Source: Rhodobacteraceae bacterium HTCC2083
Lineage (GTDB): Bacteria; Pseudomonadota; Alphaproteobacteria; Rhodobacterales; Rhodobacteraceae
Assembly: GCA_000156115.1 (NCBI GenBank)
Contig: DS995276.1
Span: forward strand, 1,570,679 to 1,634,678
Direction of reading: 5' to 3'
DNA: 64,000 bases
In this document: one piece after another, positions 6,942 to 23,250 of the stretch
How the letters are laid out: every line of letters starts with the position of its first letter
Numbering within the stretch: the stretch's first letter is position 1
Notes under the pieces: model-generated
Databases searched by the model: none
What the model was told of the DNA's origin: nothing
The model's input: only the letters and a program-made list of their open reading frames with translations
Position numbers and translations under genes: made by a program

Positions 6942-6950
6942 GGCCCAGCT

Positions 6951-8210
6951 ATGAAGACCAAAGCCATCATTGCTGACCTCAGCCAACAGCTAGAAATTCC
7001 GAATTTCAAACCGACACGGGCAGCGGGCCTTGCGCGACTGGCGCAATTTGCGGAGCGGACGGGTGACTTATATGATCGGTGCCGCAACTACGACCTTGGA
7101 CCGGAACATCGCGCTAATGTTTCCGCATTGTCGCCGTGGATACGGCACCGATTGATCACTGAAACCGAAGTTCTCACCGCCACCTTGGACGCGCATTCTT
7201 TCAACGCATCAGAGCGGTTCGTGCATGAGGTCTTTTGGCGCACTTACTTTAAAGGCTGGCTCGAACACCACCCAACCGTTTGGTCTGCTTATCAGGCGGG
7301 GCTATTACGGCAGTTGAAAAGCGCGGGCAAAGATCGCCGTCTCGCTGCCAATTATGCAGCCGCTATGGCCGGAGAAACAGGCATTGATGGCTTTGATGAT
7401 TGGACAAAGGAATTGCTGACCACCGGCTATCTGCACAATCACGCGCGGATGTGGTTTGCCTCAATTTGGATATTCACGCTTGGCCTCCCTTGGGAATTGG
7501 GGGCTGATTTTTTCCTGCGACATCTTATGGACGGCGATCCTGCGTCCAACACGCTCGCATGGCGCTGGGTGGCGGGGATACAAACCAAGGGCCGACCTTA
7601 TGTGGCGCGGGTTTCCAACATATCCAAATTCACGGATCAGCGTTTTTCCCCTTTGCATCAACTGAATACACAGGTTGAGCCATTGTCCGAGGAAGCCGAT
7701 CATCAACGCCACCCTTTGCCCAATGCAGCAACATCCGCAGAAATCACAGGCGACTACCTGCTTTTGGTGACTGAGGATGATATGCAAGTGGAAGAGACAT
7801 TACCGCACCCCCATGCAGCAAAGATCGGCGCGCTGGCGACTACAGGCAGGTCGCTGCTTCCCATTGGAAGTATCGCGCAGGCATTTGCCCGTGATGCCAC
7901 ACGCGATGCCTGTACGGGTGCGCAAATTATCGAGAACGAAATTTGGGCGGCAGACATCATTGCTGCCTGCCAAACACACAATCTAAAGACCGTCGTAACA
8001 GGCTATGCTCCGGTCGGGCCCGTTGCGACGAAACTCGTGGCTATGGAACCTGCCCTTCAGGCGGAAGGGATCAAGTTATTTCAAGTCCGCCGCGCCTTTG
8101 ATACGGTCGCATGGCCACATGCAACGAAGGGCTTCTTTGCGATGAAAAAGGGCATACCGCGTGTGTTGGAGAAACTTGGTTTGTCCTATGTCCAAAAACG
8201 TAGCCGGTGA
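6951..8210 (+). CDS. Photolyase/cryptochrome-type FAD-binding protein with permuted domains
   Basis: A 419-residue protein. Residues 15-235 match the FAD-binding half of DNA photolyases: RNYDLGP, LSPWIRHRLIT, EVFWRTYFKGWLE, then HNHARMWFASIW and DPASNTLAWRWVAG. The alpha/beta antenna domain that normally precedes this half is absent from the N-terminus. Instead residues 260-400 form an alpha/beta region (GDYLLLVTEDD, TVVTGYAPVGPVA) that could be the same type of domain moved to the C-terminus. Light-driven repair or blue-light sensing is possible. It follows the membrane methyltransferase-like gene closely. Confidence 0.75.
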   Translation: MKTKAIIADLSQQLEIPNFKPTRAAGLARLAQFAERTGDLYDRCRNYDLGPEHRANVSALSPWIRHRLITETEVLTATLDAHSFNASERFVHEVFWRTYFKGWLEHHPTVWSAYQAGLLRQLKSAGKDRRLAANYAAAMAGETGIDGFDDWTKELLTTGYLHNHARMWFASIWIFTLGLPWELGADFFLRHLMDGDPASNTLAWRWVAGIQTKGRPYVARVSNISKFTDQRFSPLHQLNTQVEPLSEEADHQRHPLPNAATSAEITGDYLLLVTEDDMQVEETLPHPHAAKIGALATTGRSLLPIGSIAQAFARDATRDACTGAQIIENEIWAADIIAACQTHNLKTVVTGYAPVGPVATKLVAMEPALQAEGIKLFQVRRAFDTVAWPHATKGFFAMKKGIPRVLEKLGLSYVQKRSR

Positions 8211-8368: not shown

Positions 8369-9751
8369 TCAGCGGAGTTCTGAACCCGCTTTGCCAGCAT
8401 TTCTTCCCAGTACCATCGCCGAAAGCAACCCGTTGCCGGACAGATACCCGCTGTCATTGCTGCCAGAAACTCCGCAAGCGGCACCGCCACCGGCGAAGAG
8501 GGTTCTGAACGCTTGCCCACTCGTTTTTAGGACACGACCGGATGTGTCGGTCTTTAGGCCACCCTGCGTGTGGAACAAGGCACCGGTTACGCGGACCCCG
8601 ACGTAAGGTGCAGACAAAGGCACGTCACCGAATGTTCGGCCAAAGCCGTCAGTCTCGCCCAAGGGCAGATCTGCGTGTGTTTCGCGCAGGGCTTGCGCCG
8701 GTAGCCCAAGTTGCTCAGCCAAATCTTCAAGGGTATTACTGGATTTTATTGCGCCCACGGCCTCGGCTTTTTTGAAATCTTCGAACTGACGGGCAATGCC
8801 TGCAATCCGTTCATCAAAGATCGCAAAGGCCTCACCATCGGGCTGGGATAAAACGGCGCGCGCGGCTTCTGAGTATCCTTGCGCTTCATTCCAAAAGCGC
8901 CGCCCGTCCTTGTTCACTTGAAAGCCGCCCTCGGTGATGACGGCCCAAGTGATCAGGATGCCGTGGGGATGGGCGACATTGCCATGCCCTTGATATGCAC
9001 CAAGATGGGTGACCTGCGCCCCGATCTTATCGGCCCAAAGAATCGCCTCGCCCTTGTTTCCGTCATGGCCAAACCACAGGCCATATTTGATCTCGGGCAT
9101 GTGCTGCCCGACCAACTCACGGTTGCCGCCAAACCCGTTACATGCCAGAATGAGACGCGCACATTTGATCGTCTCCTGAGTGTTATCTGGTGTTGAGACG
9201 GCAACCCCCGTGACTTCGCCTGCCTCGTGGAACAGCGCGAAGGCCCGTCGCTCGCAAATGATGTCGATCTCAAGCGCTTCACACCGCGCCCGCAGAGCGT
9301 CGATCAGCTCTGCGCCGGAGCGTGTTGGCAAGCCGTGCATGCGCCTGCGCGAATGACCGGGATAGTCAAAATTACTCACGACTGAAAACGGCAAACCATG
9401 CGCCTGCGCCAGCCAATCGATGACTTCAGCCGCATCGGTTGCAATCTGATCAACAAGAGCTTGATCGTTCTCGCCCTGGGCCTTGGCTTGAATGTCGCGG
9501 GCAAACAATTCGGCACTGTCGTTGATACCGGCGGCCCGCTGGATAGATGTTCCCGCAGCAGGTATGAGCCCCGCTGATAAAGCCGTAGAGCCGCTGGGAA
9601 CGGCATCCGCTTCGACAACCAGAACCTGCTCGCCTTGCTGGTGCGCAGACAAGGCTGCTACCATACCACATGCCCCCGCGCCGATGATCAGGGTTTCGCA
9701 TTCGATATCGTAAGCGCTTCGAGGGGCAAGAACATCAATCTTTGGCATCAT
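8369..9751 (-). CDS. FAD-dependent oxidoreductase, fumarate reductase/TcuA-type flavoprotein
   Basis: About 460 residues of the FAD_binding_2 family. An N-terminal Rossmann motif (LIIGAGACGM, near residue 22) is followed by the STALSAG segment, a DYPGHSRRRMHG active-site-like loop near 150 and a C-terminal GGAACGVSG...YLSGNGLL FAD-closing motif. Relatives reduce fumarate, desaturate 3-ketosteroids or oxidise tricarballylate. I use the ATG at 9751, which overlaps the upstream lyase gene by 17 bases; 9748 is equally possible. It is last in the six-gene operon, so it probably introduces or removes a C=C bond in that pathway. Cytoplasmic; no signal peptide. Confidence 0.8.
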   Translation of the reverse strand: MMPKIDVLAPRSAYDIECETLIIGAGACGMVAALSAHQQGEQVLVVEADAVPSGSTALSAGLIPAAGTSIQRAAGINDSAELFARDIQAKAQGENDQALVDQIATDAAEVIDWLAQAHGLPFSVVSNFDYPGHSRRRMHGLPTRSGAELIDALRARCEALEIDIICERRAFALFHEAGEVTGVAVSTPDNTQETIKCARLILACNGFGGNRELVGQHMPEIKYGLWFGHDGNKGEAILWADKIGAQVTHLGAYQGHGNVAHPHGILITWAVITEGGFQVNKDGRRFWNEAQGYSEAARAVLSQPDGEAFAIFDERIAGIARQFEDFKKAEAVGAIKSSNTLEDLAEQLGLPAQALRETHADLPLGETDGFGRTFGDVPLSAPYVGVRVTGALFHTQGGLKTDTSGRVLKTSGQAFRTLFAGGGAACGVSGSNDSGYLSGNGLLSAMVLGRNAGKAGSELR

Positions 9752-10598
9752 ACCGTGCCCCGATTTCGAGTTGTTCACGGGTGCCGATCACATCGTTCAA
9801 ACCATCGAAGTTAAACATGCGGTCTGCAAAAGGCTTGTTTGACCCGTTCGCATGGAGACTCTTGTAGTAGTCCTGCGCTGTGCGCCCGATTGCACGGACA
9901 ATACCGCCCGGAAAAATCACAATCGAAAACCCTTGGCGTTCAAGGTCATCTGCGTCGGTGATCGGGGTGGCACCACCTTCCACCATGTTGGCCAGCAGCG
10001 GGATACGGCCCGCGAACCGTGTTCCGATTTCTTCAAGTTGGGCGCGGTTCTGCGGCGCTTCGACAAAAAGTACATCTGCTCCGGCCTCAACATATGCCTC
10101 GGCGCGATCCAATGCTGCCGAAAAGCCTTCAACGGCGATGGCATCAGTGCGCGCGATGATCAGGGTTTCCTCACTGGCGCGCGCATCCGCCATTGCGCTA
10201 ATTTTTCCGGCCATTTCTGCAGTCGGGATCAGGGATTTATCTGCCAGATGTCCGCACCGTTTGGGGTAGCTCTGATCTTCAAGCTGTAGTGCCGCTGCCC
10301 CCACACGCTCATACAGGCGCATGGTTCTTTGGGCGTTCAGCGCATTTCCGAAGCCGGTGTCGGCATCAATGATAACAGGTAAAGCCGTGCGATCGGCAAT
10401 CAGTGCCATCGTGTCTGCCATCTCGCTTGACGTGCTGAGGCCAATATCAGGGCGACCAAGCCGCGTGTATGCGACCCCCGCACCGCTCAGATAAAGGGTC
10501 TCAAAACCAGCATCTGTTGCTATCGCGGCAGTGAGCCCGTCATAGACACCGGGAGCCACGAGGATATTGCTTTGTTGCAGGCGTGCTTTCAGGCTCAT
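9735..10598 (-). CDS. Isocitrate lyase/PEP mutase superfamily lyase
   Basis: A 287-residue TIM-barrel protein. It shows the superfamily landmarks: YLSGAGVAYTRLGRPD near residue 38, DADTGFGNA near 80, QLEDQSYPKRCGHL near 108 (the KRCGH loop carries the catalytic cysteine of true lyases) and FVEAPQN near 175. Members cleave 2-methylisocitrate, 2,3-dimethylmalate or oxaloacetate; presence of the KRCGH loop favours a C-C lyase over a mutase. The ATG at 10598 overlaps the upstream stop by four bases and has GGAGG nine bases before it. Likely the cleavage step of the operon's pathway. Confidence 0.85.
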   Translation of the reverse strand: MSLKARLQQSNILVAPGVYDGLTAAIATDAGFETLYLSGAGVAYTRLGRPDIGLSTSSEMADTMALIADRTALPVIIDADTGFGNALNAQRTMRLYERVGAAALQLEDQSYPKRCGHLADKSLIPTAEMAGKISAMADARASEETLIIARTDAIAVEGFSAALDRAEAYVEAGADVLFVEAPQNRAQLEEIGTRFAGRIPLLANMVEGGATPITDADDLERQGFSIVIFPGGIVRAIGRTAQDYYKSLHANGSNKPFADRMFNFDGLNDVIGTREQLEIGARYDAKD

Positions 10599-11215
10599 AT
10601 TGCGTCCTCCAACCATTCGCGCGCAGCGGCGCAGCTCATCTGGTGGGTCACAGTTCTAAGCGACAAAAGCGTGGCTTCATGCACGTCTTGCCGGAACGCG
10701 GCACAGCCGTCTGTCAGCATCACGGTTTCGACGTTGCGCAGGTGCGCATCGCGCAACGTCGAGGCGACGCCGCCGTTGGTCACGATCCCGCCAACGATCA
10801 GATGATCCACGCTAATAGCGCGCATGATGTATTCCAGACGGGTTTGATAGAACGCGGAATAGGCCACCTTTTCTATCACAAAATCCGCAGGGTGTAGCGT
10901 GTCCACAACCGTGTGCCCGAAGGAGCCTGGCGCGAAATCGCCCTTGGCCAGAAAAGGGCGCAGCTCTTTCAGGTGAGGCGCGATCAAGGGCTCTCCGTCG
11001 CGGTCGGGCACCAGTGTGAACTGGGCCGAAAAGTAACGCCCGCCCTTTGCCCGGAGCGCGGCCACCAATGGGGCGACACGACCAGGCAGGGCTGCGATGG
11101 CCAACGCTGATTGCCCCGCGCGGCCGTAAGCGCCTTCAGGATGGATGAAGTCGTTTTGCAGATCAATCGTCAGCAGAGCCGTTCGGGACAAGTCCCATGT
11201 TTCTGGGGCACTCAA
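10595..11215 (-). CDS. Isochorismatase-fold hydrolase lacking the catalytic cysteine
   Basis: A 206-residue isochorismatase-like protein. The aspartate (LTIDLQNDF near residue 18) and lysine (VIEKVAYSAF near 114) of the usual Asp-Lys-Cys triad are present. The third residue is glycine: the motif reads GIVTNGGV where cysteine hydrolases have GxxTNxCV (codon at 10769-10771). True isochorismatases also lack that cysteine, so the protein may cleave an enol ether or lactone-like bond, not an amide. The gene overlaps hyuA upstream and the lyase downstream by four bases each, so it is translationally coupled to both. Confidence 0.85.
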   Translation of the reverse strand: MSAPETWDLSRTALLTIDLQNDFIHPEGAYGRAGQSALAIAALPGRVAPLVAALRAKGGRYFSAQFTLVPDRDGEPLIAPHLKELRPFLAKGDFAPGSFGHTVVDTLHPADFVIEKVAYSAFYQTRLEYIMRAISVDHLIVGGIVTNGGVASTLRDAHLRNVETVMLTDGCAAFRQDVHEATLLSLRTVTHQMSCAAAREWLEDAI

Positions 11216-13275
11216 AATACGGCCTCCTGTTTTTCAATGATGGTGTTGCCAAAGCTGTCAACCCGGCCTTGCAAATCCGGCTCGATAAGAACCGTCGTAT
11301 CGGGCTGTGTCAGAATGGCCGGGCCTTTGATGACAGCGCCAACCGGAAGGATGAGCCGGTCATAAATTTCAGTGTCATGCCAGTCACTACCAAAGTGAAC
11401 ACGGCGTATTGCTTTAGGCGCAACCTCAGCGTCAGACTTCGGAGCTAGAGTCGCCAGATCAAACTTGGGGCGTTTGCCCGTCACCGCGCTGCGCAGGTTC
11501 AAAATCCGGCGCACACCGTTTTTCAACAAGCGGCCAAAGGTGGCTTGATAGGTCGCATCAAAGGCCTCTTCGATCTGCGCTTTGGTTGGCGGTACAACTT
11601 TGCCTTTAACCGTTTCAATCGTGATCGGAACCGGTACGGTGTGGGTTTGGCCGATATAGGCCATGTCTAGTTCAAAGCTGAGTTCACGGCTGTCAAACTT
11701 GGTTTTGGAGGCGTCCAGCAAGGCCATGCCCTGGTCAACATGGGACTGCATGAAATCTGTCAGCGCCGCCTCGTCCAATGTGCTGACCAATGTGTTGATG
11801 GTTTGCACAAAATCCTGTCGCATGTCGGCGATCACACATCCCATGGCCGAGGTCACACCGGGGTAGCGCGGCACAATGGCGCGCTCGATCCCTGTCTCGG
11901 CCAACACCGCGCCCGCATGCAGGGCACCGCCGCCGCCAAACGGCATGAACGCAAAGCGCTTGGGGTCAAACCCGCGCTCGATCCCGACAAGGCGGATTGC
12001 GCCGGCCATCCGGCTGTTGGCAACCCTCAATATAGCCTCTGCGGCTTCCAAGGTTGTTAGGCACAAAGGTTTGCCAACATGGGCGTCAATCGCCTTTGAA
12101 GCGGCCTCAACATCAAGCCGCTCCAGCTTTCCGCCAATTGGGTTTTCGGGGTCAATACGCCCGAGAACTATATTGGCATCGGTCACCGTCGGCCTGTCAT
12201 TGCCAAGCCCGTAAGCCACAGGACCGGGGTTTGATCCCGCACTTTCCGGCCCGATGTTGAGCAACCCGCCCTTATCGACCCAAGCGATAGAACCGCCGCC
12301 CGCGCCGATTGTTGTGATCTCGATCATCGGGGTGCGCACCACCATCCCAAAATCAATCGAGGTCTGCGGGGACAGGATCGACCGACCCTCATGGATAAGG
12401 GACACATCAAAGCTGGTGCCGCCCATGTCCCCCGTGATGACATTCTCAAAGCCCGCCGATCCGGCGATGTATCCCGCCGCGATGACGCCAGCGGCAGGGC
12501 CTGACAGGGCCGTGCGCACCGGCATTTTGCAGGCCGTTTCAACCGCCATAACACCGCCATTGGACTGTACGATCATAAATTCGCCGTCAAAGCCAACGTC
12601 ATGCAGCGCGCCCTCAAGGTGGCCCAGATAGCCTGATATTTCAGGTTGCAGATAGGTGTTCAGGGCGGTGGTTGAAAACCGCTCGAACTCGCGAATTTCG
12701 GGCAGGATTTCATGCGACGCTGAGACATGCGCATTCGGCCAGACCTCGCGCAGGACAGCAACCGCCGCTGCCTCGTTTTCAGGGTTTGCATAGGCGTTGG
12801 CAAACAGGATCGCCGCCGCTTCGCATCCATTTTCCAGCAGCTGCTCTGCTGCGGCGCGCACCGCCTCCAGATCAACCTGCGTTCGTATCGTTCCGTCAGC
12901 CAAGGTGCGCTCGGGCACTTCAAGTCGGTTGCGCCGGTCTACGACGGGTTCAAAGTCCCCGCGCAACCCCCAGGTGCGTGGCCGGTCACGGCGGCGCATT
13001 TCAAGCACATCGCGCAGACCGCTGGTGCAGATCACACCGGTCTTTGCGCCCTTTCGCTCAAGCAGCGCATTGGTGCCAGCAGTCGTGCCGTGCACTACAA
13101 CCGAAATCTCTGAGAGGTCTTTAACTTCGCATCCGATCCCGTCAAGAAAGCCGCCGGATTGATCCGGTCGGCTCGTCGGTACCTTGGCCACAGCCGCAGT
13201 GCCCGCCTCTTCGTTTAGAACGAATACATCTGTGAATGTCCCGCCGACATCCACCCCAATCATACGTTTACTCAT
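11212..13275 (-). CDS. hyuA: Hydantoinase/oxoprolinase family protein, HyuA subunit
   Basis: A 687-residue ATP-binding subunit. It starts with the actin-fold phosphate loop GVDVGGTFTDVFV, then HGTTAGTNALLERKG (residues 60-75) and a second phosphate motif GDMGGTSFDVSL near 285. HyuA with HyuB hydrolyses cyclic amides such as hydantoins or 5-oxoproline at the cost of ATP; acetone-type carboxylases share this fold, so carboxylation is an alternative. The ATG at 13275 overlaps the hyuB stop by four bases. It is the third of six co-directional genes; the overlaps imply one transcript. Confidence 0.9.
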   Translation of the reverse strand: MSKRMIGVDVGGTFTDVFVLNEEAGTAAVAKVPTSRPDQSGGFLDGIGCEVKDLSEISVVVHGTTAGTNALLERKGAKTGVICTSGLRDVLEMRRRDRPRTWGLRGDFEPVVDRRNRLEVPERTLADGTIRTQVDLEAVRAAAEQLLENGCEAAAILFANAYANPENEAAAVAVLREVWPNAHVSASHEILPEIREFERFSTTALNTYLQPEISGYLGHLEGALHDVGFDGEFMIVQSNGGVMAVETACKMPVRTALSGPAAGVIAAGYIAGSAGFENVITGDMGGTSFDVSLIHEGRSILSPQTSIDFGMVVRTPMIEITTIGAGGGSIAWVDKGGLLNIGPESAGSNPGPVAYGLGNDRPTVTDANIVLGRIDPENPIGGKLERLDVEAASKAIDAHVGKPLCLTTLEAAEAILRVANSRMAGAIRLVGIERGFDPKRFAFMPFGGGGALHAGAVLAETGIERAIVPRYPGVTSAMGCVIADMRQDFVQTINTLVSTLDEAALTDFMQSHVDQGMALLDASKTKFDSRELSFELDMAYIGQTHTVPVPITIETVKGKVVPPTKAQIEEAFDATYQATFGRLLKNGVRRILNLRSAVTGKRPKFDLATLAPKSDAEVAPKAIRRVHFGSDWHDTEIYDRLILPVGAVIKGPAILTQPDTTVLIEPDLQGRVDSFGNTIIEKQEAVF

Positions 13276-14966
13276 GATGTCACCTCGCGCCATGTTATGC
13301 CATAAACCTGGTCTGCCGCCTCTTCACTGACGAGGCCGCGATGCACGTCTTGTGCGATTGCAGCCGCCGAGCGCTCGGCACTTGGCCCGTAGCCACCACC
13401 ACCGGGGGTTTCCAAGCGCACGGCTTGCCCCTGAAGCAACTTGATCCCACGGATTTTGGAGGCCAGCGGCGGAGTCTCCCAGCCTTCTTCCTGCTCATAG
13501 GTGAACACGTTCATTGCACCATCGGAACCCTCTGCGATGCCTTTGGGCGCAAACCGGCCGCGCTCGCCAAACAAGAACGCTTCAGCGCCGTTTTCTTCGA
13601 GAACTTCGATCTCGTAAACAGCACCAACACCGCCACGATGTGCGCCATGTCCGGCGCTATCAGGCCTAAGCCCCCATGTGCGAAACATCACAGGATAGGC
13701 GGCTTCAAGGATCTCCATCGGCGGGATTGTCGCTGTAGAAATCGGCGCATTTCCGTGGTTTAAGCCGTCGGTTTCAACCGAGCCGCCGTGCCCACCGCCA
13801 TAGAAGCTGAACATCACCCAAGGTTGCCCGTTGCTGCGTTTGCCAGCGATAGACAGCGCGTTGATTGTCCCGTAAGCGTTCGCTACGACGCTGGTCGGAG
13901 CAACCTTGGCAAAGGCGGAAAACACCACATCAATCATGCGCAAAATGGTTTCGGTATATCCCCCAGTCGGGGCGGGGAACTTTGCAGATAACAGCGAATT
14001 TTCTGGCACAACCACATCAATCGGGCGCATCACACCTGCGTTTGCGGGCAAGCCTGGGAAGATGTGTTTGACCGCCACATACGCCGTGGCGACGGTTGTT
14101 GGCAGTGCGATATTAACAGGGCCAGCGCATTGATCTGCCGACCCTGTGAAGTCGAGCGTCATTTTGTCGTCAGCAATTTCGAGCGCCACTTTGATCAACA
14201 ACGGCTCATCTGTGATGCCGTCATTGTCGAGGAAGTCTGCAGCTTCCCAACGGCCATCGGGCAGGTCTTGCAACTCTGAGCGCATCAAGGCTTCGGCGCG
14301 ATGGCCAAGCGCATCAAGAGCGGCGGACACAGTGTCGGCCCCGTATTCGTCAAGCAATTCGTCCATACGCTTGATACCAAGGTCAAGCGCGCCGAGTTGC
14401 CCGTTCAAATCTCCCATCGCCGATTGCGGCAGGCGGGTGTTTCTCAGGAGGATATCAATGATGTCTTGATTAATCTTGCCTGCGCGCGCCAGTTTGACGG
14501 GGGGCAGAACAAACGCTTCTTGAAAAACCTCTGTCGCAGCGGGGTTGTAGTTACCCGGCACAGCGCCGCCCACATCATGCCAGTGCCCGACTGAAGCAAG
14601 ATAGCAAAACAGTTTGCCATCCCTGTAATAGGGCCGAACCAGCCGCATGTCGCTGAGGTGGGTGCCGCCGATATGCGCGTCGTTGAAGATGTAGATATCG
14701 CCGTCCGCCAAGTCTCCGTCTTTGGCCGCTTTGCCGATCACGGCCTGAACCGCAAAAGACATAACGCCGACAAAAATCGGCAGGCCTGATTTGCCCTGAA
14801 CAAGCGTGTCGCCTGTGGTCGCGTGATAGAGCCCGTGGCTCGCGTCGTGGGCTTCGGCTATGATTGGGTTAAACGCCGCGCGAAAAAGCGTGGCGTCCAT
14901 TTCATCGGCAATCTGCTCCATCCGTCCGGCAAGAACAGAGAGGGTTATCGGATCAATATCTGTCAT
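13272..14966 (-). CDS. hyuB: Hydantoinase/oxoprolinase family protein, HyuB subunit
   Basis: A 564-residue HyuB subunit, normal length. Family landmarks are DPITLSVLAGRMEQIADEM at the start, a metal-site-like NDAHIGGTHLSDM near residue 93, GHWHDVGG near 128 and the glycine-rich GGGGYGP near the C-terminus. It forms the catalytic partner of HyuA. The start overlaps the stop of the tautomerase-fusion gene by four bases, and its own stop overlaps hyuA in the same way. This arrangement keeps the subunits stoichiometric. Confidence 0.9.
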   Translation of the reverse strand: MTDIDPITLSVLAGRMEQIADEMDATLFRAAFNPIIAEAHDASHGLYHATTGDTLVQGKSGLPIFVGVMSFAVQAVIGKAAKDGDLADGDIYIFNDAHIGGTHLSDMRLVRPYYRDGKLFCYLASVGHWHDVGGAVPGNYNPAATEVFQEAFVLPPVKLARAGKINQDIIDILLRNTRLPQSAMGDLNGQLGALDLGIKRMDELLDEYGADTVSAALDALGHRAEALMRSELQDLPDGRWEAADFLDNDGITDEPLLIKVALEIADDKMTLDFTGSADQCAGPVNIALPTTVATAYVAVKHIFPGLPANAGVMRPIDVVVPENSLLSAKFPAPTGGYTETILRMIDVVFSAFAKVAPTSVVANAYGTINALSIAGKRSNGQPWVMFSFYGGGHGGSVETDGLNHGNAPISTATIPPMEILEAAYPVMFRTWGLRPDSAGHGAHRGGVGAVYEIEVLEENGAEAFLFGERGRFAPKGIAEGSDGAMNVFTYEQEEGWETPPLASKIRGIKLLQGQAVRLETPGGGGYGPSAERSAAAIAQDVHRGLVSEEAADQVYGITWREVTS

Positions 14967-15529
14967 GTTTTAGCCTTTGTTTCAGCGATGTCGTTCCAGA
15001 CGTCTTGTTGGGTAAGTTTGTCCCCTACGACTTCGAAACGGTCGATGAATCGGATGCCTGTAAAGGTGGTCCCATCAGGCCACTCTCCCGAAAGGGTGCC
15101 ACGGCAATAGACTATGGCAGCGTCGCCCGCGCTTTGCATGGCATCAAAGCCATCATAGGTTTTGCTCACACGACGGTAGCGCGGTTTTGCCCAATCAATC
15201 AGCTGTGTGAGTGTTGTCATCGGTCTGGTACCGGGAAAGGTCATTGTGAAACCTTTCGAGAGGATGCCTTGGGCCTTTTCCAAGTCGCGCGCTTCCATCG
15301 CTGATAAAAATGTGCGCACCGTTTCTACCGGATCAGGTTTGGCAGGCGCGGGATGTCTTGATGTTCGACCGCGGTAATAGTTCTGCGCCGGAATATCGTT
15401 AATCGTGACCGTCACAAGGTCAGGTGCTGCAGGCACCACTAGACGAACAGCATCTGTAATCGCTTCACCGAGGCGCAGCTTATCTTTCGGCGTATACCCC
15501 TCAAGCACGTGCAATTGAACAATCGGCAT
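14963..15529 (-). CDS. Tautomerase (4-OT family) fused to an NTF2/SnoaL-like domain
   Basis: A 188-residue two-domain protein and the first gene of the operon. Residues 1-58 form a 4-oxalocrotonate tautomerase unit with the catalytic N-terminal proline directly after methionine (MPIVQLHVLEGYTPKDK) and a basic end (YYRGRTSR). Residues 67-188 look like a SnoaL/NTF2-like alpha+beta cone (FLSAMEARDLEKA, then strands ending in FIDRFEVVGDKLTQQDVWND). Enol-keto isomerisation of a dicarboxylate is the natural guess for the first domain; the second may bind the substrate. The fusion is unusual. Confidence 0.75.
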   Translation of the reverse strand: MPIVQLHVLEGYTPKDKLRLGEAITDAVRLVVPAAPDLVTVTINDIPAQNYYRGRTSRHPAPAKPDPVETVRTFLSAMEARDLEKAQGILSKGFTMTFPGTRPMTTLTQLIDWAKPRYRRVSKTYDGFDAMQSAGDAAIVYCRGTLSGEWPDGTTFTGIRFIDRFEVVGDKLTQQDVWNDIAETKAKT

Positions 15530-15571
15530 AGGCCCCCCCCAAAGTCATTCCAGCAATCTCAGAGTTATTTC

Positions 15572-15589
15572 TGTATTAAGCTTAATACA
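15572..15589. promoter_or_regulatory. 18-bp perfect palindrome, candidate GntR operator
   Basis: TGTATTAAGCTTAATACA reads the same on both strands. It sits 43 bases upstream of the tautomerase-fusion start and 105 bases upstream of the GntR gene, in the only non-coding gap of the divergent regulon. The position would let one dimer repress both arms. HutC-type regulators use GT...AC-flanked palindromes, which this is, though the spacer is longer than the common form. Confidence 0.6.
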
Positions 15590-15694
15590 ACTTTTGTATC
15601 TTTGTTAAGTCTATTTTTCTCTTGCAAAACGACACATCATTGGTCTTCATTGGCTAAGATTCGTGCGGTCAGTGCCATTTGGAGGGGGTCAGCA

Positions 15695-16513
15695 GTGGAA
15701 ACAGCCAGCTCAGCAAAGTTGCCAGATGGTGCCAAAGCGCGCCGCGTTTATCTATCTCTGTGCGATCAAATATCGGATGGCCGGCTGTGCGATGGTGAAA
15801 CACTGCCTGGAGAACAGAAGCTAGCCGAGGCTTACTCGGTCTCTCGTGTCACTGTGCGGCGGGCCTTGGATGCCTTGAGTGCCGCAGGCCTGATCGAGAA
15901 GCGCATTGGCAGCGGCACAAGGGTTTGCAGTAAGTCTCTGACTGAAAAGCGCGCTGCGATGAACTTCAATACCTTGATGCCCCAGCTTGTTGAAATGGGT
16001 CAATCGACGACGGCGCGGCTTTTGTCGTTTTCCTACAGCCAGCCGCCTGATTATGTGGCTCAAGCATTGGCGTTGAACGCAAACGAGAAAGCACAGATTG
16101 CCACGCGGGTACGCTTGGCAGATAATGTGCCGTTTTCGCACTTAACCACCTATGTTCCGACACACATCGCGCGCAATTACTCCGAGAATGATTTGGCAAC
16201 CACGCCATTGTTCAAGCTGTTGGAGCGCAGCGGCGTCCAGATAGATGCGGCCCATCAGTCGGTGTCCGCCAGCCTTGCAGGCCCCGAAGTCGCCGAAGCG
16301 CTGGAAGTTGCTGAAGGATCTGCGCTATTGTCAATGAAGCGCATCGTGCGCGACATTGACGGCAATGGTGTCGAGTATCTTTCGGGGCTGTATCGTCCGG
16401 ATATGTTCAGCCTTGAGATGCCATTGGTGCGCACTGGCAAGGGCGAGGCACGCCACTGGGAGCCAGCGATTGGCCAGACAGGTCAGGACGAAAATGAGCA
16501 GGTGCGCCCATGA
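15695..16513 (+). CDS. GntR-family transcriptional regulator, HutC/UTRA subfamily
   Basis: About 272 residues. The winged helix (residues 20-75) has LPGEQKLAEAYSVSRVTVRRAL, and the UTRA effector domain (residues 95-240) ends with EYLSGLYRPDMFS. I chose the GTG at 15695 because GGAGGGGG lies six bases upstream; longer frames to 15509 overlap the opposite gene and add non-protein-like sequence. The stop overlaps the LeuC-like gene by four bases, so regulator and enzymes share a transcript. Expected role: substrate-sensing repressor of the divergent catabolic regulon. Confidence 0.85.
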   Translation: METASSAKLPDGAKARRVYLSLCDQISDGRLCDGETLPGEQKLAEAYSVSRVTVRRALDALSAAGLIEKRIGSGTRVCSKSLTEKRAAMNFNTLMPQLVEMGQSTTARLLSFSYSQPPDYVAQALALNANEKAQIATRVRLADNVPFSHLTTYVPTHIARNYSENDLATTPLFKLLERSGVQIDAAHQSVSASLAGPEVAEALEVAEGSALLSMKRIVRDIDGNGVEYLSGLYRPDMFSLEMPLVRTGKGEARHWEPAIGQTGQDENEQVRP

Positions 16514-17916
16514 GCCGCCGGCAAACCCTTTTCGGAAAACTCTGGGCTGCGCATGAAATCTTGCGCCGCGAAGATGGCGTCTCGCTGTTGTGGGTCGACC
16601 GGCACTTGGTGCATGAGGGCTCACATCACGCCTTCGCCAAGATCGCCGCGCGTGGCCTGCCCATAGTCGCACCCGACAACACCGTGGCTGTGGTCGATCA
16701 TTATGCGCCGACGCGTGGCCGCAGCAATATAATTGATCCGCAGATTGCGCGGATGATCGATACGCTTCGCCAGAACGCCGAAAAACACGAGCTGCGCATC
16801 TTCGATCTTGATGACCCCACGCAGGGCATTGTTCATGTTGTCGGGCCGGAGCAAGGCATTACCCTGCCTGGTTTGCTGATCAATTGCGGCGACAGCCACA
16901 CCTCAACCCATGGTGCCTTCGGGGCTTTAGCCTTCGGGATCGGGGCGACAGAAGTTGCGCATGTTCTGGCGACGCAAACGATTTGGCAAAAAAAGCCCAA
17001 AGTGATGCGGATCACCATTGATGGAGAGTTGGAAGCAGGCGTTACGGCCAAGGACATCGCACTTCACTGGATCGCGCGTCTCGGAACAGGCGGCGCGCAG
17101 GGCCATGCCATCGAATATGCAGGAAGCACTGTTCGCGCCCTGACGATGGAAGGGCGTATGACGCTTTGCAACCTGTCTATCGAAGGGGGTGCGCGCTTTG
17201 GCATGGTCGCTCCTGACGAGACCACCAAAGCCTATGTAAAGGGCCGCCCTTATGCGCCTGTCGCCGATGAGTGGGACGCCGCAGAAAAAGCGTGGGATGC
17301 CTTAAGCTCAGACGCTGACGCGGCTTTTGACATTGATATCCACATTGATGCGGCGGACATCGCTCCGACTGTTACATGGGGCACAAGCCCTGAACAGGCA
17401 CTGCCGATAGACGCGCCCCTGCCGGACCCCGCCATGCTGAGCCCGCAGAAGTCGGACCTCGCGTCTGAGGCGCTAGAGTATATGGGGCTGACGCGAGGAA
17501 AAAGCCTTGCCGGAACCGCGGTTGATCAGGTCTTCATCGGGTCTTGCACAAATGGCCGGATCGAAGATCTGCGGGCTGCGGCGGCCGTGCTTGCGGGGCA
17601 TCGCGTCAAAGTGCCGGGGCTTGTTTCTCCGGGGTCGCAACTCATCAAGGCTCAGGCGGAAAAAGAGGGTCTGGACAAAGTGTTTACTGATGCCGGGCTG
17701 GAGTGGGCTGACTCCGGGTGTTCGATGTGTGTCGGCATGAATGGTGATCTTGTCGGCAATGCCAAGCGCTGCGCATCATCTACTAATCGTAACTTTAAGG
17801 GGCGCCAAGGGCGCGGCGCACGCACGCACCTTATGTCACCGGCCATGGTCGCGGCGGCAGCAATCACCGGAGAAATCACCGATGTGCGCATGCTCTTGCG
17901 AGATCGGGACAGCTGA
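16510..17916 (+). CDS. Aconitase-superfamily hydro-lyase large subunit (LeuC type)
   Basis: A 468-residue LeuC-like subunit. The [4Fe-4S] ligands are visible: GSCTNGR near residue 343 and CSMCVGMNGD near 406. Substrate-site motifs include GDSHTSTHGAFG near 127 and the SPAMVAAAAITG C-terminal helix. The length matches bacterial isopropylmalate isomerase. The catabolic setting (GntR, TRAP importer, lyase) argues that it is a paralogue acting on another dicarboxylate, such as a methylated or alkylated maleate; leucine synthesis genes are absent here. Works with the adjacent small subunit, whose start shares one base with this stop. Confidence 0.8.
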   Translation: MSRRQTLFGKLWAAHEILRREDGVSLLWVDRHLVHEGSHHAFAKIAARGLPIVAPDNTVAVVDHYAPTRGRSNIIDPQIARMIDTLRQNAEKHELRIFDLDDPTQGIVHVVGPEQGITLPGLLINCGDSHTSTHGAFGALAFGIGATEVAHVLATQTIWQKKPKVMRITIDGELEAGVTAKDIALHWIARLGTGGAQGHAIEYAGSTVRALTMEGRMTLCNLSIEGGARFGMVAPDETTKAYVKGRPYAPVADEWDAAEKAWDALSSDADAAFDIDIHIDAADIAPTVTWGTSPEQALPIDAPLPDPAMLSPQKSDLASEALEYMGLTRGKSLAGTAVDQVFIGSCTNGRIEDLRAAAAVLAGHRVKVPGLVSPGSQLIKAQAEKEGLDKVFTDAGLEWADSGCSMCVGMNGDLVGNAKRCASSTNRNFKGRQGRGARTHLMSPAMVAAAAITGEITDVRMLLRDRDS

Positions 17917-18527
17917 TGGCGGGATGGCAGACACATGACGGTGTTGCGGTGGCACTGCCCCTTGCAAATGTTGACACAGATCAGCTGATCCCTGCTCGGT
18001 TTATGTCTGTGCCACGCTCTGAGGGTTATGGCGACTACCTTTTGCATGACGTGCGCCGCGATGCATCAGGGGCATTGCGCCCCGAATTTCCTTTGAACCA
18101 AGCTCAGCAAGCCTCTGTCCTTGTTGCTGGCGCAAACTTTGGCAGCGGCTCCTCACGCGAAGCGGCGGTTTACGCTTTGATCGACGCAGGATATCACGCC
18201 GTTTTTGCCTCGAGCTTTGGCGACATTTTCGCCAGTAACTCTGTCAATAACGGGCTTTTGCCTGCACGCATTAAGCCTGAAACCTATGATGAGCTTGTCT
18301 CATTCATCGGCAAATCGCCTTGTGAGGTACGCATTGATCTGAAAAATGGGCAGGCCTCCTTTAATGCAAAACAACTAGATTTCGTGCTTGATGAAACCTG
18401 GCGGATGAAACTTTTGAACGGATGGGATGACATAGATCTGACGCAGCAACACAATGCGCAAATCTCGGCATTCAAGTCCAAATACGCTCAAACCAAACCG
18501 TGGGCTGTGCCCGCATCAAACGTTTGA
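17916..18527 (+). CDS. Aconitase-superfamily hydro-lyase small subunit (LeuD type)
   Basis: A 203-residue swivelling-domain subunit. It has NVDTDQLIPARFM near residue 20 and the GANFGSGSSREAAVYAL substrate-binding loop near 70, followed by SSFGDIFASNSVNNGLLP near 98. Length and motifs match the long (E. coli type) LeuD. It completes the heterodimer with the preceding gene and precedes the TRAP genes by 96 bases. The same substrate reservations apply. Confidence 0.8.
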   Translation: MAGWQTHDGVAVALPLANVDTDQLIPARFMSVPRSEGYGDYLLHDVRRDASGALRPEFPLNQAQQASVLVAGANFGSGSSREAAVYALIDAGYHAVFASSFGDIFASNSVNNGLLPARIKPETYDELVSFIGKSPCEVRIDLKNGQASFNAKQLDFVLDETWRMKLLNGWDDIDLTQQHNAQISAFKSKYAQTKPWAVPASNV

Positions 18528-18623
18528 AATATGCAGCCTATGCTGCGCTAACCGGCATCTGACAAGTGCCACACAAAACAAGCGAGGCGAACTTTCGCTT
18601 GAGAAAAATGGGAGGACTTCAAA

Positions 18624-19637
18624 ATGAAGATGACTATTTGGGGCGGCATTTTGGCCAGCTCGACTTTGCTTGCTGGACTGGCGCAAGCGGAAGAGAAAAT
18701 CTCAGCGGTACATGCGTTTCCTGAAAGCCTGATTTACACCAAGAGCTTTCTGTCATTCGTCGACAAAGTGAACGAAGCTGGCGTAGGTGTCGTTCAGATC
18801 GACGTGCGCGGCGGGCCAGAGGCTATTGGCATGTTCCAGCAGCCCGATGCGGTGCGCGACGGGGTCGTTGATATGGTTTACACGCCCGGTTCTTTTTACG
18901 GCGGTGCGCTGCCCGAGAAAGATGCGATGGTCGCATCCAACCTGACAGCGATTGAAACCCGCGCAAACGGCGGCATCGAGCTGGTCGACCAAATCCACCA
19001 AGAAAAGATGGGCCTTAAGTATCTCGGCTGGTTTGACAGTGGTGTATGCTACAACCTTTGGACGCGCGATGAGCCAAAGTTTGACGCAGACGGCAACCTT
19101 GAAGTCGACGGCCTCAAGCTTCGCGGTAACAACGTTTATAACGCGTTTTTCACCAACTACCTGAACGCTCAGGTCATCGACTTGCCCACCGGTGAAGTCT
19201 ACTCCGCGCTCCAACGCGGTGTTGTTGATGCGACGGGTTGGACCCAGATCGGCCTGATTGATCTGAAATGGAACGAGTTTCTGAACTACCGGATTGAACC
19301 TTGCTTCTTTTCGACTGACCTTGGTGTCATCGTAAACAACGAAAAGTGGGACTCTCTCTCTGAGGAAGCCCGCAAGATCGTTCAGGATGTGGCCATTCAG
19401 CACGAGAAGGACAGCGTTGCAGCCCTGCGCATCAAACGCGACGAAGACTTTGCAGCGCTTGATGCCGCTGGCATGAAGGTCGTCACGCTCGAAGGTGAAG
19501 CAAAAGCGAATTACCTCGCTGCTGCGCGCGAGAAAACCTGGGAGCGCATGAAGTCGGTTATGGCTGAGCAACCGGGTGGTACAGCCAACTATGATCGCCT
19601 GCTCGAGTTGTTCTACGATCTCAACGCCGCAAAATAA
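18624..19637 (+). CDS. TRAP transporter substrate-binding protein, DctP family
   Basis: A 337-residue periplasmic receptor. Residues 1-22 are a signal peptide ending in AQA; GGGAGG precedes the ATG. The mature part has the DctP architecture, with GLKLRGNNVYNAFFTNYL (residues 168-185) in the usual ligand-contact region; the arginine (LRGNN) that binds the carboxylate is present. It belongs to the right arm of the divergent regulon and should capture the pathway's substrate, most likely a carboxylate. Confidence 0.9.
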   Translation: MKMTIWGGILASSTLLAGLAQAEEKISAVHAFPESLIYTKSFLSFVDKVNEAGVGVVQIDVRGGPEAIGMFQQPDAVRDGVVDMVYTPGSFYGGALPEKDAMVASNLTAIETRANGGIELVDQIHQEKMGLKYLGWFDSGVCYNLWTRDEPKFDADGNLEVDGLKLRGNNVYNAFFTNYLNAQVIDLPTGEVYSALQRGVVDATGWTQIGLIDLKWNEFLNYRIEPCFFSTDLGVIVNNEKWDSLSEEARKIVQDVAIQHEKDSVAALRIKRDEDFAALDAAGMKVVTLEGEAKANYLAAAREKTWERMKSVMAEQPGGTANYDRLLELFYDLNAAK

Positions 19638-19646
19638 AACTTGGAC

Positions 19647-19669
19647 GGGCTGGTCGCTGTGATCAGCCC
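19647..19669 (+). terminator. Hairpin between dctP and dctQ genes
   Basis: GGGCTGGTC and GATCAGCCC form a 9-bp stem (one G-U pair) with a five-base loop, followed by a weak pyrimidine run. It starts 10 bases after the dctP stop. Such hairpins usually stabilise the receptor mRNA or attenuate readthrough, giving more receptor than membrane subunits. Confidence 0.55.
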
Positions 19670-19694
19670 GCCTTTCGGTTTCAATAAGTCCGAT

Positions 19695-20201
19695 ATGCAC
19701 ATGATCTCCCGCACTTTCGCCTTTTTGGTAAATTTCTTTGCCGTTGTTGCTGGTGCAACGCTCGTTTGGCTGATGATCTCTGTGATCACTTCGGTGCTGC
19801 TGCGCAACGCTGGCTTGCAGCCTTTTGCGTGGTTGTTCACCTCTGCGGAATATGGCCTTCTTTATATGACCATGCTGGGCGCGCCCTGGCTGGTGCGTGA
19901 AAAGGGCCATGTGCATATCGAACTTGTCACGGCTGCACTGCCTAACAAGGCACGGCGGATCGTGAGCCGGATCGTCGCAATCCTCTGCGTGCTGGTTTGC
20001 GTGATTCTCGCGTGGAAGGGCCTTGAGCTGTTCCTGAAAAACATCGAGCGCGGCGACTTTGACACCCGCGCATATTACTACCCCCGTTGGATGTTAACGA
20101 TCACCTTTCCTGTCAGCTTTGGCCTGATGGCGATTGAGTTTTCGCACTTTGTTTTCGGGAAAGACTTAATGCACTCCGGTGAAGCAGGGATTCACGAATA
20201 A
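19695..20201 (+). CDS. TRAP transporter small permease, DctQ
   Basis: About 168 residues with four membrane helices (near residues 8-30, 45-62, 88-108, 130-152), typical of DctQ. The REKGHVHIELV motif near residue 70 is the classic family signature. The start is placed at 19695; 19701 is an alternative, while an upstream TTG would lie inside the hairpin. The stop shares one base with the DctM start, so the two are coupled. Confidence 0.85.
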   Translation: MHMISRTFAFLVNFFAVVAGATLVWLMISVITSVLLRNAGLQPFAWLFTSAEYGLLYMTMLGAPWLVREKGHVHIELVTAALPNKARRIVSRIVAILCVLVCVILAWKGLELFLKNIERGDFDTRAYYYPRWMLTITFPVSFGLMAIEFSHFVFGKDLMHSGEAGIHE

Positions 20202-21508
20202 TGGAATGGTTTGAAGCACTCGCTCTGCTGGTGGGGTCGATCATCTTTCTGATGGCACTCGGCATGCCGGTTGCCTTGGCCTTTCTCGCGGCCAACATCA
20301 TTGGCGCTTACATCTTTATGGGTGGCGAGCGCGGGGTCGGTCAGTTGCTAAGCAACGGCCTTGGGGCGCTGACAAAATACGCGTTGGTGCCGATCCCGCT
20401 GTTCTTGCTGATGGGCGAGATTTTCTTTCATACGGGGCTTGGCGGTCGAATGTTCACCGCCATCGACAAGCTGCTCGGGCGTCTTCCGGGGCGGCTGAGC
20501 TATGTGACTGTTTTGGGCGGCACGGCGTTTTCAACCCTGTCTGGCTCGTCCATGGGGTCAACGGCTTTGCTCGGCTCTTTGATGGTGCCCGAAATGGGAC
20601 GACGTGGTTACAAGCCGCATATGAGCATTGGCCCGATCCTTGGTACCGGTGGTCTTGCGATCATTATCCCACCCTCTGCCCTGGCCGTCCTGCTGGCAAC
20701 GCTTGCCCAGATTGATGTGGCGGCTTTGCTGCTCGCGGGGGTTATCCCCGGTTTGATACTGGCCAGCTTTTACATCGTAACGATCTGGTTGCAGACTAAA
20801 ATCGACCGAACAGCTGCACCCGCCTATGATATTGAACCGATGACGCTTTGGGAAAAGGTCACAACGCTTTGCACTGAAGTCGTGCCTATGGTCGGGGTCA
20901 TGGTCGTTATCATAGTGTTGATGGTCCAAGGCTTTGTCACTCCCTCTGAGGCCGCCGCCTTTGGCGCTTTGGGCGTTCTGATCCTCGCCGCCGTGTTCAA
21001 GTGCTTAACCATTGAAGCAATGCGCAAGTCTATTGTCGGTGCCTTGCGCGTCACGTTGATGGCCTATCTGATCGTGTTCGGCTCCGCCACATTCAGCCAG
21101 CTCCTCGCCTTTTCTGGAGCTTCAAGAGGGTTGGTAAGTTGGGCCACATCGTTTGATTTGGCACCGCTGGCGATGCTGCTTGTTATGTTCGCCGTGTTGT
21201 TGCTGCTTGGCATGTTCATGGAACAGATCTCTATGATGTTGCTTACAGTTCCGATCTTCTTTCCGCTTGCTCATAGCCTCGGATTTGATCCGATCTGGTT
21301 TGGCTTGATCATGCTTCTTGCGCTTGAGATTAGCTTTACCACACCGCCCTTTGGCCTGTTGTTATTCGTCATGAAAGGCGTGGCGCCACGAGGCACAACC
21401 ATGAAGACGATCTACACTTCGGCCTTTCCGTTTATTGGCTGCTCGCTGCTTTTGGTCGCTCTTTTGATCGCATTTCCGCAGCTCGCGCTTTGGCTTCCGT
21501 CTTTCTGA
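20201..21508 (+). CDS. TRAP transporter large permease, DctM
   Basis: A 435-residue inner-membrane protein with about 12 hydrophobic helices, normal for DctM. Recognisable segments include GMPVALAFLAANIIG near residue 25, LSGSSMGSTALLGS near 113 and IIPPSALAVLLA near 155, which are ion- and substrate-pathway loops in this family. With DctP and DctQ it completes a sodium-driven importer. It is the last gene of the right arm. Confidence 0.9.
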   Translation: MEWFEALALLVGSIIFLMALGMPVALAFLAANIIGAYIFMGGERGVGQLLSNGLGALTKYALVPIPLFLLMGEIFFHTGLGGRMFTAIDKLLGRLPGRLSYVTVLGGTAFSTLSGSSMGSTALLGSLMVPEMGRRGYKPHMSIGPILGTGGLAIIIPPSALAVLLATLAQIDVAALLLAGVIPGLILASFYIVTIWLQTKIDRTAAPAYDIEPMTLWEKVTTLCTEVVPMVGVMVVIIVLMVQGFVTPSEAAAFGALGVLILAAVFKCLTIEAMRKSIVGALRVTLMAYLIVFGSATFSQLLAFSGASRGLVSWATSFDLAPLAMLLVMFAVLLLLGMFMEQISMMLLTVPIFFPLAHSLGFDPIWFGLIMLLALEISFTTPPFGLLLFVMKGVAPRGTTMKTIYTSAFPFIGCSLLLVALLIAFPQLALWLPSF

Positions 21509-22027
21509 GGGGTGGTGGTGCACCGGAAGGCGTATTGTTCAGAATATGTCACCCTCGCCATTGTGCTCAGGGTCGCACCCAACACCTAAAGGGTGTAGAA
21601 GTTGTGAAAATGGCGGATGTAACGGGCATTTGAATGACCGGTTTTCCTGCGGCGCTTCCGCATAGAGATTTACGCCGTCGCAGCAATTTTCGCGCTGCTT
21701 GCGCACGCAGTACAAGAAACGAATTCACTGTGTGAGCTCTCCTGAAACCTTCGCGGCATTATTCACGAACGGCAGGTCTAGGAAGGCCAGCCTTTGACTG
21801 CTCCTCGTGTGAATTCAACAGATACGGCCTTTCAAACCATTCGTTTGTCGCACTCCGCTGACGCAGCATTTGCTTGTATTCGCAGCATGTAATGCACTGC
21901 ATTGAAGCATCTGCCCCCAGACCGGTCATTCACAAAATTGGTTTCAGTCGGAGCGAATAACTTACTTTCGCCGCAGCAGACGCACACAAGCCACACGCAG
22001 ACAACGCCGTCATCCTGCTAAGCGAAT
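21509..22027. other. Intergenic stretch, degenerate, no gene seen
   Basis: About 520 bases without a plausible gene. The text contains the same short words (gctgcttg, cgcagcattt, gaatg/ggc) seen in the other gene-poor gaps of the window, and no clear terminator follows the dctM stop at 21508. Confidence 0.45.
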
Positions 22028-22332: not shown

Positions 22333-22371
22333 AGGGGCCTAATCGCGAACTAGCCGACGCAGTCCTACAAT

Positions 22372-22726: not shown

Positions 22727-22768
22727 TTTTAGCGACTGACCTTGCCCTATTGGTGCTGAGTCACCGTA

Positions 22769-23134: not shown

Positions 23135-23250
23135 GGTGGTTCCCTTTTTGTAACCGGGGCTCAAACATGTGCCTTCTTGTGGCGCATTCCAGTGTTCATT
23201 AGGTAGTCAGTCACAAATGTATACTGAAAAATACGGGTTCTGACAATAGG

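Follow-up and report, generated by a model that had tools for sequence, protein, structure and literature searches.

The window analysed here is a stretch of 64,000 nucleotides from Rhodobacteraceae bacterium HTCC2083 (C5:1570679-1634678 of a 4.0-Mb genome; feature coordinates count from the window start). At 8369-21508 it harbors twelve open reading frames (ORFs) that diverge as two arms from a single gap, an arrangement referred to below as a divergon and considered as a possible catabolic unit for a small cyclic amide or imide (Table 1). An earlier note made from the letters alone (the original prediction) had described this layout and named the gene families; the ORF list bears out the former, and Pfam and NCBIfam the latter. 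The minus strand gives Pfam matches to FAD_binding_2, PEP_mutase, Isochorismatase, Hydantoinase_A, Hydantoinase_B, and Tautomerase with SnoaL/DUF4440. Those on the plus strand are GntR with UTRA, Aconitase, Aconitase_C, DctP, DctQ and DctM, the last three forming a tripartite ATP-independent periplasmic (TRAP) transporter. Within each arm neighbouring genes overlap or nearly abut, the sole exception being 96 bp ahead of DctP.

Table 1. Features of the divergon, in window coordinates.
Feature	Position	Strand	Evidence
FAD_binding_2 flavoprotein (fumarate-reductase/flavocytochrome-c-like), proposed desaturase of a substituted succinate, accessory	8369..9778	-	Pfam, NCBIfam
PEP-mutase/isocitrate-lyase-fold lyase, PrpB-like, proposed last C-C cleavage to pyruvate	9735..10616	-	Pfam, NCBIfam, PDB, motifs
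ICH, Cys-less isochorismatase-fold hydrolase	10595..11215	-	Pfam, PDB matches, alignments, AlphaFold model
HyuA, hydantoinase/oxoprolinase A, ATP-dependent by family	11212..13293	-	Pfam, NCBIfam, PDB
HyuB, hydantoinase/oxoprolinase B	13272..14966	-	Pfam, NCBIfam, PDB
Tautomerase domain fused to SnoaL/NTF2-like domain, accessory	14963..15529	-	Pfam
Perfect palindrome TGTATTAAGCTTAATACA, proposed GntR operator in divergent gap	15572..15589	.	Gap comparison
GntR/UTRA regulator (start moved from 15509)	15695..16513	+	Pfam, upstream GGAGGGGG
LeuC-type large subunit, proposed catabolic hydro-lyase	16510..17916	+	Pfam, NCBIfam, tree
LeuD-type small subunit	17916..18527	+	Pfam, NCBIfam
TRAP receptor DctP, closest solved relative 4mnc/4mni	18624..19637	+	Pfam, PDB
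TRAP small permease DctQ	19641..20201	+	Pfam
TRAP large permease DctM	20201..21508	+	Pfam

The GntR ORF as listed runs into the tautomerase gene. Its likely start is the GTG at 15695 behind a GGAGGGGG box, which gives a protein of 272 aa and a divergent gap of 165 bp (15530-15694). The gap contains a perfect palindrome, TGTATTAAGCTTAATACA, that is absent from the original prediction and is conserved in the gaps of relatives: 50 of 54 gap regions, the window's included, match TGTATTA-n4-TAATACA at no fewer than 12 of its 14 positions (L001, L057, L084 and L088 fall below). The same match occurs in 17 of 1080 random windows of these loci, the gap itself possibly among them, and in none of 1080 shuffles. 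Because the gapped motif occurs once in the window genome at up to one mismatch, and an operator search of that genome for a wider regulon gave no more than one weak site with three mismatches to the exact 18-mer, the distribution points to a private, local regulator. GntR would be the protein acting at the palindrome.

For conservation, genome contigs were scanned with ICH and the best 80 of 175 loci were taken; modules were counted in the 46 that reach at least 20.4 kb, presence being a tblastn match over a set identity (ORF calls, with miscalls in high-GC loci, served only to choose coordinates for family scans). HyuA plus HyuB are present in 44 of these 46 full-length loci, as is the lyase (44/46), followed by LeuC/LeuD and the flavoprotein (43/46 each), tautomerase-SnoaL and TRAP (36/46 each) and GntR (35/46). 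Among the closest relatives (L001-L059), all ten scored gene types occur together in 34 of 36 full-length loci, and the other two (L043, L052) miss only a GntR match, with TRAP elsewhere in the locus. The gene set is thus kept together across genomes and is far beyond a chance neighbourhood, a reading we reject on the co-location across the 46 loci. One outcome named by the original prediction as a refutation, genes scattered and never together, did not occur, although other genomes do contain the lyase-LeuCD pair by itself. Counting the window's own genome, ICH itself is present in 45 of the 248 genomes sampled from the family (E<=1e-60) and in 26 of 385 from the class (E<=1e-45). HyuAB-ICH-lyase-LeuCD extends to Rhizobiales, Azospirillum and Paraburkholderia, and the set lies on plasmid records of Sulfitobacter, Azospirillum, Neorhizobium, Roseomonas, Tistrella and Paraburkholderia. 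Distant loci (Rhizobiales, Azospirillum, a contig labelled Oceanobacillus) often have a branched-chain-type ATP-binding cassette (ABC) importer in place of TRAP and a different, archaeal-type LeuC of about 421 aa. For the ABC receptor of one relative, all solved relatives are of the branched-chain-amino-acid type, which points to no substrate. The smallest set, in Paraburkholderia (L092), consists of GntR, an ABC importer, LeuCD, HyuAB, ICH and the lyase, without flavoprotein or tautomerase.

A sister form of the divergon carries another opening module. A lyase search of 398 genomes of the phylum gave 16 with a match and led to two genomes of one genus (L162, L163); 61 genomes of this sister genus were then searched, a PuuE-type gene was found in 18, and 14 of the 18 loci were read (12 plus L162 and L163). 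In all 14, DctM-DctQ-DctP-LeuD-LeuC-GntR diverges from a lyase, an isochorismatase-type hydrolase, two proteins of the PuuE/polysaccharide-deacetylase family and a flavoprotein. The slot of HyuB-HyuA-ICH is occupied by ICHc-PuuEb-PuuEa in every case, and the hydrolase has a Cys motif, GGSTSGC (14/14). No match to HyuA, HyuB or close match to ICH is present in any of the 14 loci, and the PuuE-type pair is in none of the 46 full-length loci with Cys-less ICH. The palindrome (at least 13 of 14 positions) stands twice in the sister divergons, in the gap and between GntR and LeuC. Identity to the window is 61-65% for DctP, 70-72% for DctM and 49-54% for the lyase. A SnoaL gene opens the left arm in 12 of the 14, and none has a tautomerase domain beside it. 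The LeuC match of L162 is split in two pieces within two overlapping ORFs, and the DctP match of L163 is in two pieces as well.

The opener pair appears to belong to the wider family rather than to PuuE proper: its B. plantarii homologues score 128.2 and 142.1 vs a PuuE equivalog cut-off of 424.6, and the copies of the sister genus match only as Polysacc_deac_1. PuuE is an allantoinase of polysaccharide-deacetylase fold, from a family described as related to cyclic imide hydrolases; the fungal cyclic imidase HxnM is 64% identical to a Pseudomonas putida cyclic imide hydrolase homologue and structurally related to the PuuE branch (PMC9304392; PMC3084791). Because all 14 sister divergons carry the replacement under the same palindrome and importer type, HyuB-HyuA-ICH and the PuuE-type pair with its Cys hydrolase are probably interchangeable. 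What HyuAB and the PuuE family have in common would be ring opening in small cyclic amides, imides or ureides; ICH and the Cys hydrolase would share the cleavage of the amide that results. Interchangeable sets thus would point to opening of a cyclic -CO-NH-CO- group and cleavage of the resulting amide, and in this sense the exchange, as far as gene content can tell, independently supports a cyclic amide or imide.

A looser second exchange links Neorhizobium petrolearium (L084, HyuAB-ICH) and Rhizobium rhizoryzae (L184, PuuE-type), which have in common an ABC importer, LeuCD, a flavoprotein, a PrpD-type gene and two Asp/Glu racemases. Within the family of the window, 7 of 248 genomes carry a PuuE-type gene, and ICH is found in one of the seven, G989, as well. 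Six of the seven loci were read: only L234 is plainly a cluster of the same type (lyase 43%), L239 shows a weaker neighbourhood of lyase, PrpD and racemase, and the other four hold an amidase-family gene within the stretch, without a lyase or LeuCD match. A third opener is possible in Variovorax RA8 (L133, plasmid 2), where a related lyase (53%) and LeuCD lie beside a RutA/SfnG-like luciferase-like monooxygenase and a flavin reductase. The same locus holds RibBA and another isochorismatase-fold protein without Cys (motif STAWAV).

In the window, Hydant_A_N, Hydantoinase_A and Hydantoinase_B domains of HyuA and HyuB are over their Pfam cut-offs, and the CapAB caprolactamase equivalog is not reached (494.5 and 300.9 vs 1000). 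Both proteins also match acetophenone carboxylase subunits, members of the same superfamily, so that HyuAB could be read as an ATP-dependent ketone carboxylase (acetone/acetophenone type) in a cluster degrading a keto acid. However, hydrolase relatives outscore carboxylases in the PDB both for HyuA (420 and 364 bits vs 294 and 214) and for HyuB (248 and 234 vs 135), and an exchange for the PuuE-type pair would not be expected of a carboxylase, which makes this reading very improbable. ICH is assigned to the isochorismatase fold by its sequence matches in Pfam and the PDB; a confident AlphaFold model, built on 31 sequences, has a mean predicted local distance difference test score (pLDDT) of 92.5 and a predicted template modelling score (pTM) of 0.90. 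Its catalytic Cys is absent, as had been noticed from the sequence: the motif reads GGIVTNGGVAST, with GG in 94 of 94 aligned rows (the window's gene is counted more than once, and L024 and L026 are the same stretch). G148 and G149 are invariant in 38 sequences, and so are D18 and K116, an Asp and a Lys that we take to be catalytic.

The lyase carries KRCGH, the motif of PrpB-type lyases, together with NMVEGG and FPGGIVRA. Where the solved PrpB chains shown read ANITEFGATP (ANLTEFG in one), the window has ANMVEGGATP, and the eight commonest variants listed among relatives all have NMVEGG. Its score is under the PrpB equivalog cut-off (292.4 vs 354.4; two relatives reach 295.1 and 303.4). By PDB score it appears slightly nearer to PrpB (195.8 bits) than to petal death protein (180.4) or 2,3-dimethylmalate lyase (3fa3, 172.5), which leaves the substrate class wide. 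The flavoprotein is likewise under its cut-offs (TIGR01813, 251.6 vs 285.45; TcuA, 148.7 vs 369) and has no match in L092. Acyl-CoA dehydrogenase and CoA-transferase genes lie between ICH and LeuCD on Tistrella pTM2 (L083), at the position of the flavoprotein in Azospirillum, and occur in B. plantarii in addition to the flavoprotein; these genes would suit desaturation of a substituted succinate. One Sphingomonas and one Acidiphilium plasmid with the PuuE-type set have CaiB and a hydroxymethylglutaryl-CoA-lyase (HMGL)-type lyase alongside or replacing the PEP-mutase-fold lyase, a pair known from (R)-citramalate cleavage in other bacteria. Such neighbours suggest a 2-methylmalate-type intermediate and pyruvate as product. 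The ligand of 4mnc/4mni, the closest solved relatives of DctP, is presumably benzoylformate, a planar keto acid.

We infer the chemistry, the order of every step and the substrate as follows. A GntR/UTRA repressor, released by substrate or product, would control both arms from the gap palindrome, and TRAP would import a small organic anion. HyuAB with ATP would open a cyclic -CO-NH-CO- ring, most likely that of a C-alkylated, probably methylated, cyclic imide. The Cys-less ICH would cleave the ring-opened amide to ammonia and a substituted maleate or succinate, the flavoprotein desaturating the acid if it is saturated. LeuCD would hydrate the substituted maleate to a 2-methylmalate-type acid, which the PrpB-like lyase would split to pyruvate and a second acid. 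That the divergon is a substrate-induced catabolic unit of this kind, from alkylated cyclic imide to pyruvate plus acid, has in our judgement about an even chance of being right. The original prediction had proposed that a small cyclic imide or lactam, or its acid, is imported, opened, oxidised, tautomerised, hydrated and split to pyruvate-level products. Its interpretation agrees with the conserved set, the gap palindrome and the LeuC clade described below, and the logic of ring opening, hydrolysis, desaturation, hydration and splitting fits most observations. The tautomerisation step is dispensable: because the tautomerase domain is absent at that place in the sister divergons, it is not essential to the scheme.

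Several sets of observations weigh against this scheme. The first concerns the ring, since the PuuE family fits ureides such as allantoin too, and between imide and ureide the exchange is undecided. A hydantoin or pyrimidine-like ring could be opened by HyuAB or the PuuE-type pair to an N-carbamoyl compound, decarbamoylated by ICH, and oxidised as an amino acid by the flavoprotein before hydratase and lyase act. Such a route accords with the closest solved relatives of HyuAB, N-methylhydantoinase and 5-oxoprolinase, with an alternative opener from an allantoinase family, with the distant kinship of ICH to RutB and biuret hydrolase, and with genes of the Asp/Glu/hydantoin racemase family in some relatives. 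However, the core contains no aminotransferase or ammonia lyase, and L092 keeps LeuCD and the lyase without a flavoprotein, so that an amino acid would have no entry into the hydratase. We regard the ureide route as unlikely and prefer the imide, because an imide yields the dicarboxylate directly and a ureide an amino acid, in a core without deaminase.

The second concerns ICH, as a fold without its Cys nucleophile is not an obvious amidase. The Cys is replaced by Gly, as presumably in the isochorismatases EntB and PhzD, and ICH might act as true isochorismatases do, by general acid catalysis on a vinyl group, here of an enol or enamine left by ring cleavage; double bonds would be moved by the tautomerase, and the ring opened by HyuAB would be a lactam rather than an imide. 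This enamine or enol route draws on the tautomerase gene in the closest clusters and on L066 and L075 (about 5.8-17 kb), where the same ICH and a close LeuCD occur but HyuAB and the lyase do not; both loci have a LigB-type gene nearby, and L066 also a FAD_binding_3 monooxygenase. The same slot in all 14 sister divergons is nevertheless filled by a hydrolase with an amidase-type signature, the GGSTSGC Cys, and the lack of a tautomerase domain beside SnoaL in those loci also tells against it. This route is quite unlikely. In the favoured imide scheme, L066 and L075 could be salvage modules, as could Tistrella pTM1 (L130), where lyase, flavoprotein, tautomerase, racemases and PrpD are present and HyuAB and ICH are missing; alternatively, ICH could act on something other than a half-amide.

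The third concerns LeuCD, which scores over the NCBIfam cut-offs (LeuC, 611.6 vs 560.25; LeuD, 152 vs 116.25), as a spare leucine-biosynthesis enzyme in a chance neighbourhood would. The window genome encodes three LeuC-type proteins plus one of aconitase size. In a FastTree of 69 sequences, the LeuC copy at C5:824189-825610 lies among the top LeuC matches from other alphaproteobacteria, a reference set called biosynthetic by similarity to that copy and not by gene neighbours. The window LeuC falls outside this set: together with LeuCs of related clusters in several orders and two additional copies of unassigned context, it makes up a clade of its own (support 0.975). The clustering with true leucine enzymes that the original prediction had named as a refutation was therefore not found. 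For this tree, matches with fewer than 250 aligned residues and rows with stops were dropped first, which left 119 sequences in addition to the window's; removal of duplicates and of most L001-L059 rows then brought the set to 69. The conserved co-location, and the distant archaeal-type LeuCD that fills the same slot in other relatives, likewise speak against a leucine enzyme. The cluster LeuCD is thus probably not a leucine enzyme, and a spare biosynthetic copy is scarcely credible. Given the scores, automatic annotation will go on naming it one. A second LeuCD of the same genome (L099, G000:C5:820000-839500, 10091-17202) lies beside TRAP, an alpha/beta hydrolase and LysR and is possibly another catabolic one; some 10 kb away lies the third LeuC, probably the biosynthetic one.

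The fourth concerns the cohesion of the pathway. Among 15 lyase loci from other genomes, HyuAB accompanies the lyase in six, the PuuE-type set in two and neither in seven, five of which still have LeuCD. Of seven plasmid loci (annotated or plain) with the PuuE-type pair, LeuCD is present only in L180, L181 and L184, and a PEP-mutase-fold lyase in L180 (38%) and L184 (45%), while L178, L179, L182 and L183 have neither. The lyases of the L084/L184 exchange are 43-45% identical to the window's and lack NMVEGG in a motif scan. Because the lyase/LeuCD and PuuE-type sets occur apart, the lyase and LeuCD seem to act as a back-end module that receives its substrate from several front ends or straight from acid import, and the PuuE-type set appears to have roles in other pathways too. 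The reading of the sister divergons strengthens the exchange about as much as the lyase loci weaken the link between front and back end. Several of the loci with lyase and LeuCD but neither opener (L154, L159, L161, L164, L165) have them beside TctC-type receptors. On Salipiger abyssi plasmid pPABY2 (L179), the PuuE-type pair and an isochorismatase-type gene lie beside amidases, near nadABC-type genes, together with a different HyuAB (33% and 29% identity).

An alkylmaleimide is a plausible candidate substrate. Methylmaleimide, methylethylmaleimide, methylvinylmaleimide and haematinic acid are named in PMC7318184 as oxidation products of chlorophyll or haem. The paper also refers to reports that place maleimides and haematinic acid in senescing leaves and in the sediments of lakes; in its own study, haematinic acid was found and maleimides were undetected. 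These compounds would fit a methyl-bearing ring, and haematinic acid also an anion-importing TRAP. HyuAB would open the imide, ICH would cleave the maleamic acid with the substrate's own cis-carboxylate replacing the Cys, and LeuCD and lyase would give pyruvate plus acetate, butyrate or glutarate. Against a pigment origin, neither the window cluster nor the labelled neighbours include a gene that names a tetrapyrrole. That maleimides from chlorophyll or haem are the actual substrate, by this route, is decidedly improbable. An isonicotinate/citrazinate route was set aside, as it would not be expected to need its own hydratase and lyase.

Bacterial cyclic imide degradation employs an imidase and a half-amidase and ends at a dicarboxylate. 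Like that pathway and fungal HxnM/HxnN (PMC9304392), the divergon would open a -CO-NH-CO- ring and then hydrolyse the amide. The opener of the sister divergons comes from a family related to those imidases; in the window, an ATP-dependent HyuAB and a Cys-less ICH are followed by a hydratase and a C-C lyase instead of direct entry into the citric acid cycle. Nicotinate fermentation, in its second half, relies on 2,3-dimethylmaleate hydratase and then on dimethylmalate lyase. The succession of an aconitase-family hydratase and an isocitrate-lyase-fold lyase leading to pyruvate-type products is alike, whereas the window has a bacterial 468-aa-type LeuC, a lyase nearer to PrpB, and no mutase/isomerase genes in the cluster. 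The methylcitrate cycle (AcnD/PrpB) similarly has a 2-methylisocitrate-type substrate split to pyruvate by a KRCGH lyase, but the lyase here is under the PrpB cut-off, with NMVEGG for NITEFG, and PrpC is not part of the set. In the creatinine/N-methylhydantoin route, HyuAB acts with N-carbamoylsarcosine amidase. Here too HyuAB is followed by an isochorismatase-fold hydrolase, but one without Cys and with LeuCD and lyase downstream. The maleate hydratase HbzIJ, set beside the window by description, is of the LeuCD family and hydrates maleate or citraconate to D/R-malate, as would LeuCD here; the upstream ring of the HbzIJ system is aromatic.

No paper on the gene set was found in the open full-text literature, subscription journals lying largely outside this coverage, and no title or abstract start in the related literature describes it. 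In their available parts, PMC9804861 (isoprene) uses 'dimethylmalate lyase' solely for a methylcitrate gene, PMC4809877 (Ruegeria) names a HyuA-family gene, SPO3739, and PMC7609661 gives a general mechanism only. Each part comes from a known family; how they are combined, the family of Cys-less ICH proteins and the exchange of HyuAB for PuuE all go undescribed in the literature found. The divergon looks like a regulated, widespread catabolic unit. With HyuAB replaced by a PuuE-type set in a divergon that otherwise matches, the first step is narrowed to breaking open a small cyclic amide, and two independent enzyme sets become available for finding the substrate. Were this an alkylmaleimide, the divergon would provide an enzymatic sink for tetrapyrrole debris of low molecular weight. 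Whatever the substrate, it brings out a Cys-less hydrolase family and a LeuCD clade presently annotated as leucine biosynthesis.

Past the divergon of Sulfitobacter sp. S190 (L088, 17.7-24.6 kb) lie genes for a Mo hydroxylase, a 6-hydroxynicotinate reductase, UPF0280 and 'amino acid synthesis' proteins. On the right of the window's divergon, about 1.2 kb (21509-22768) has no ORF of 90 aa and may be decayed; an HxlR regulator gene follows on the minus strand (22769-23164). On the left, 6101-8210 adjoins the arm with a 291-aa ORF without Pfam match and then a photolyase/cryptochrome-type FAD_binding_7 protein, and a transposase-like protein (rve_3 and HTH domains, 4579-5490) lies about 3 kb beyond the end of the arm.

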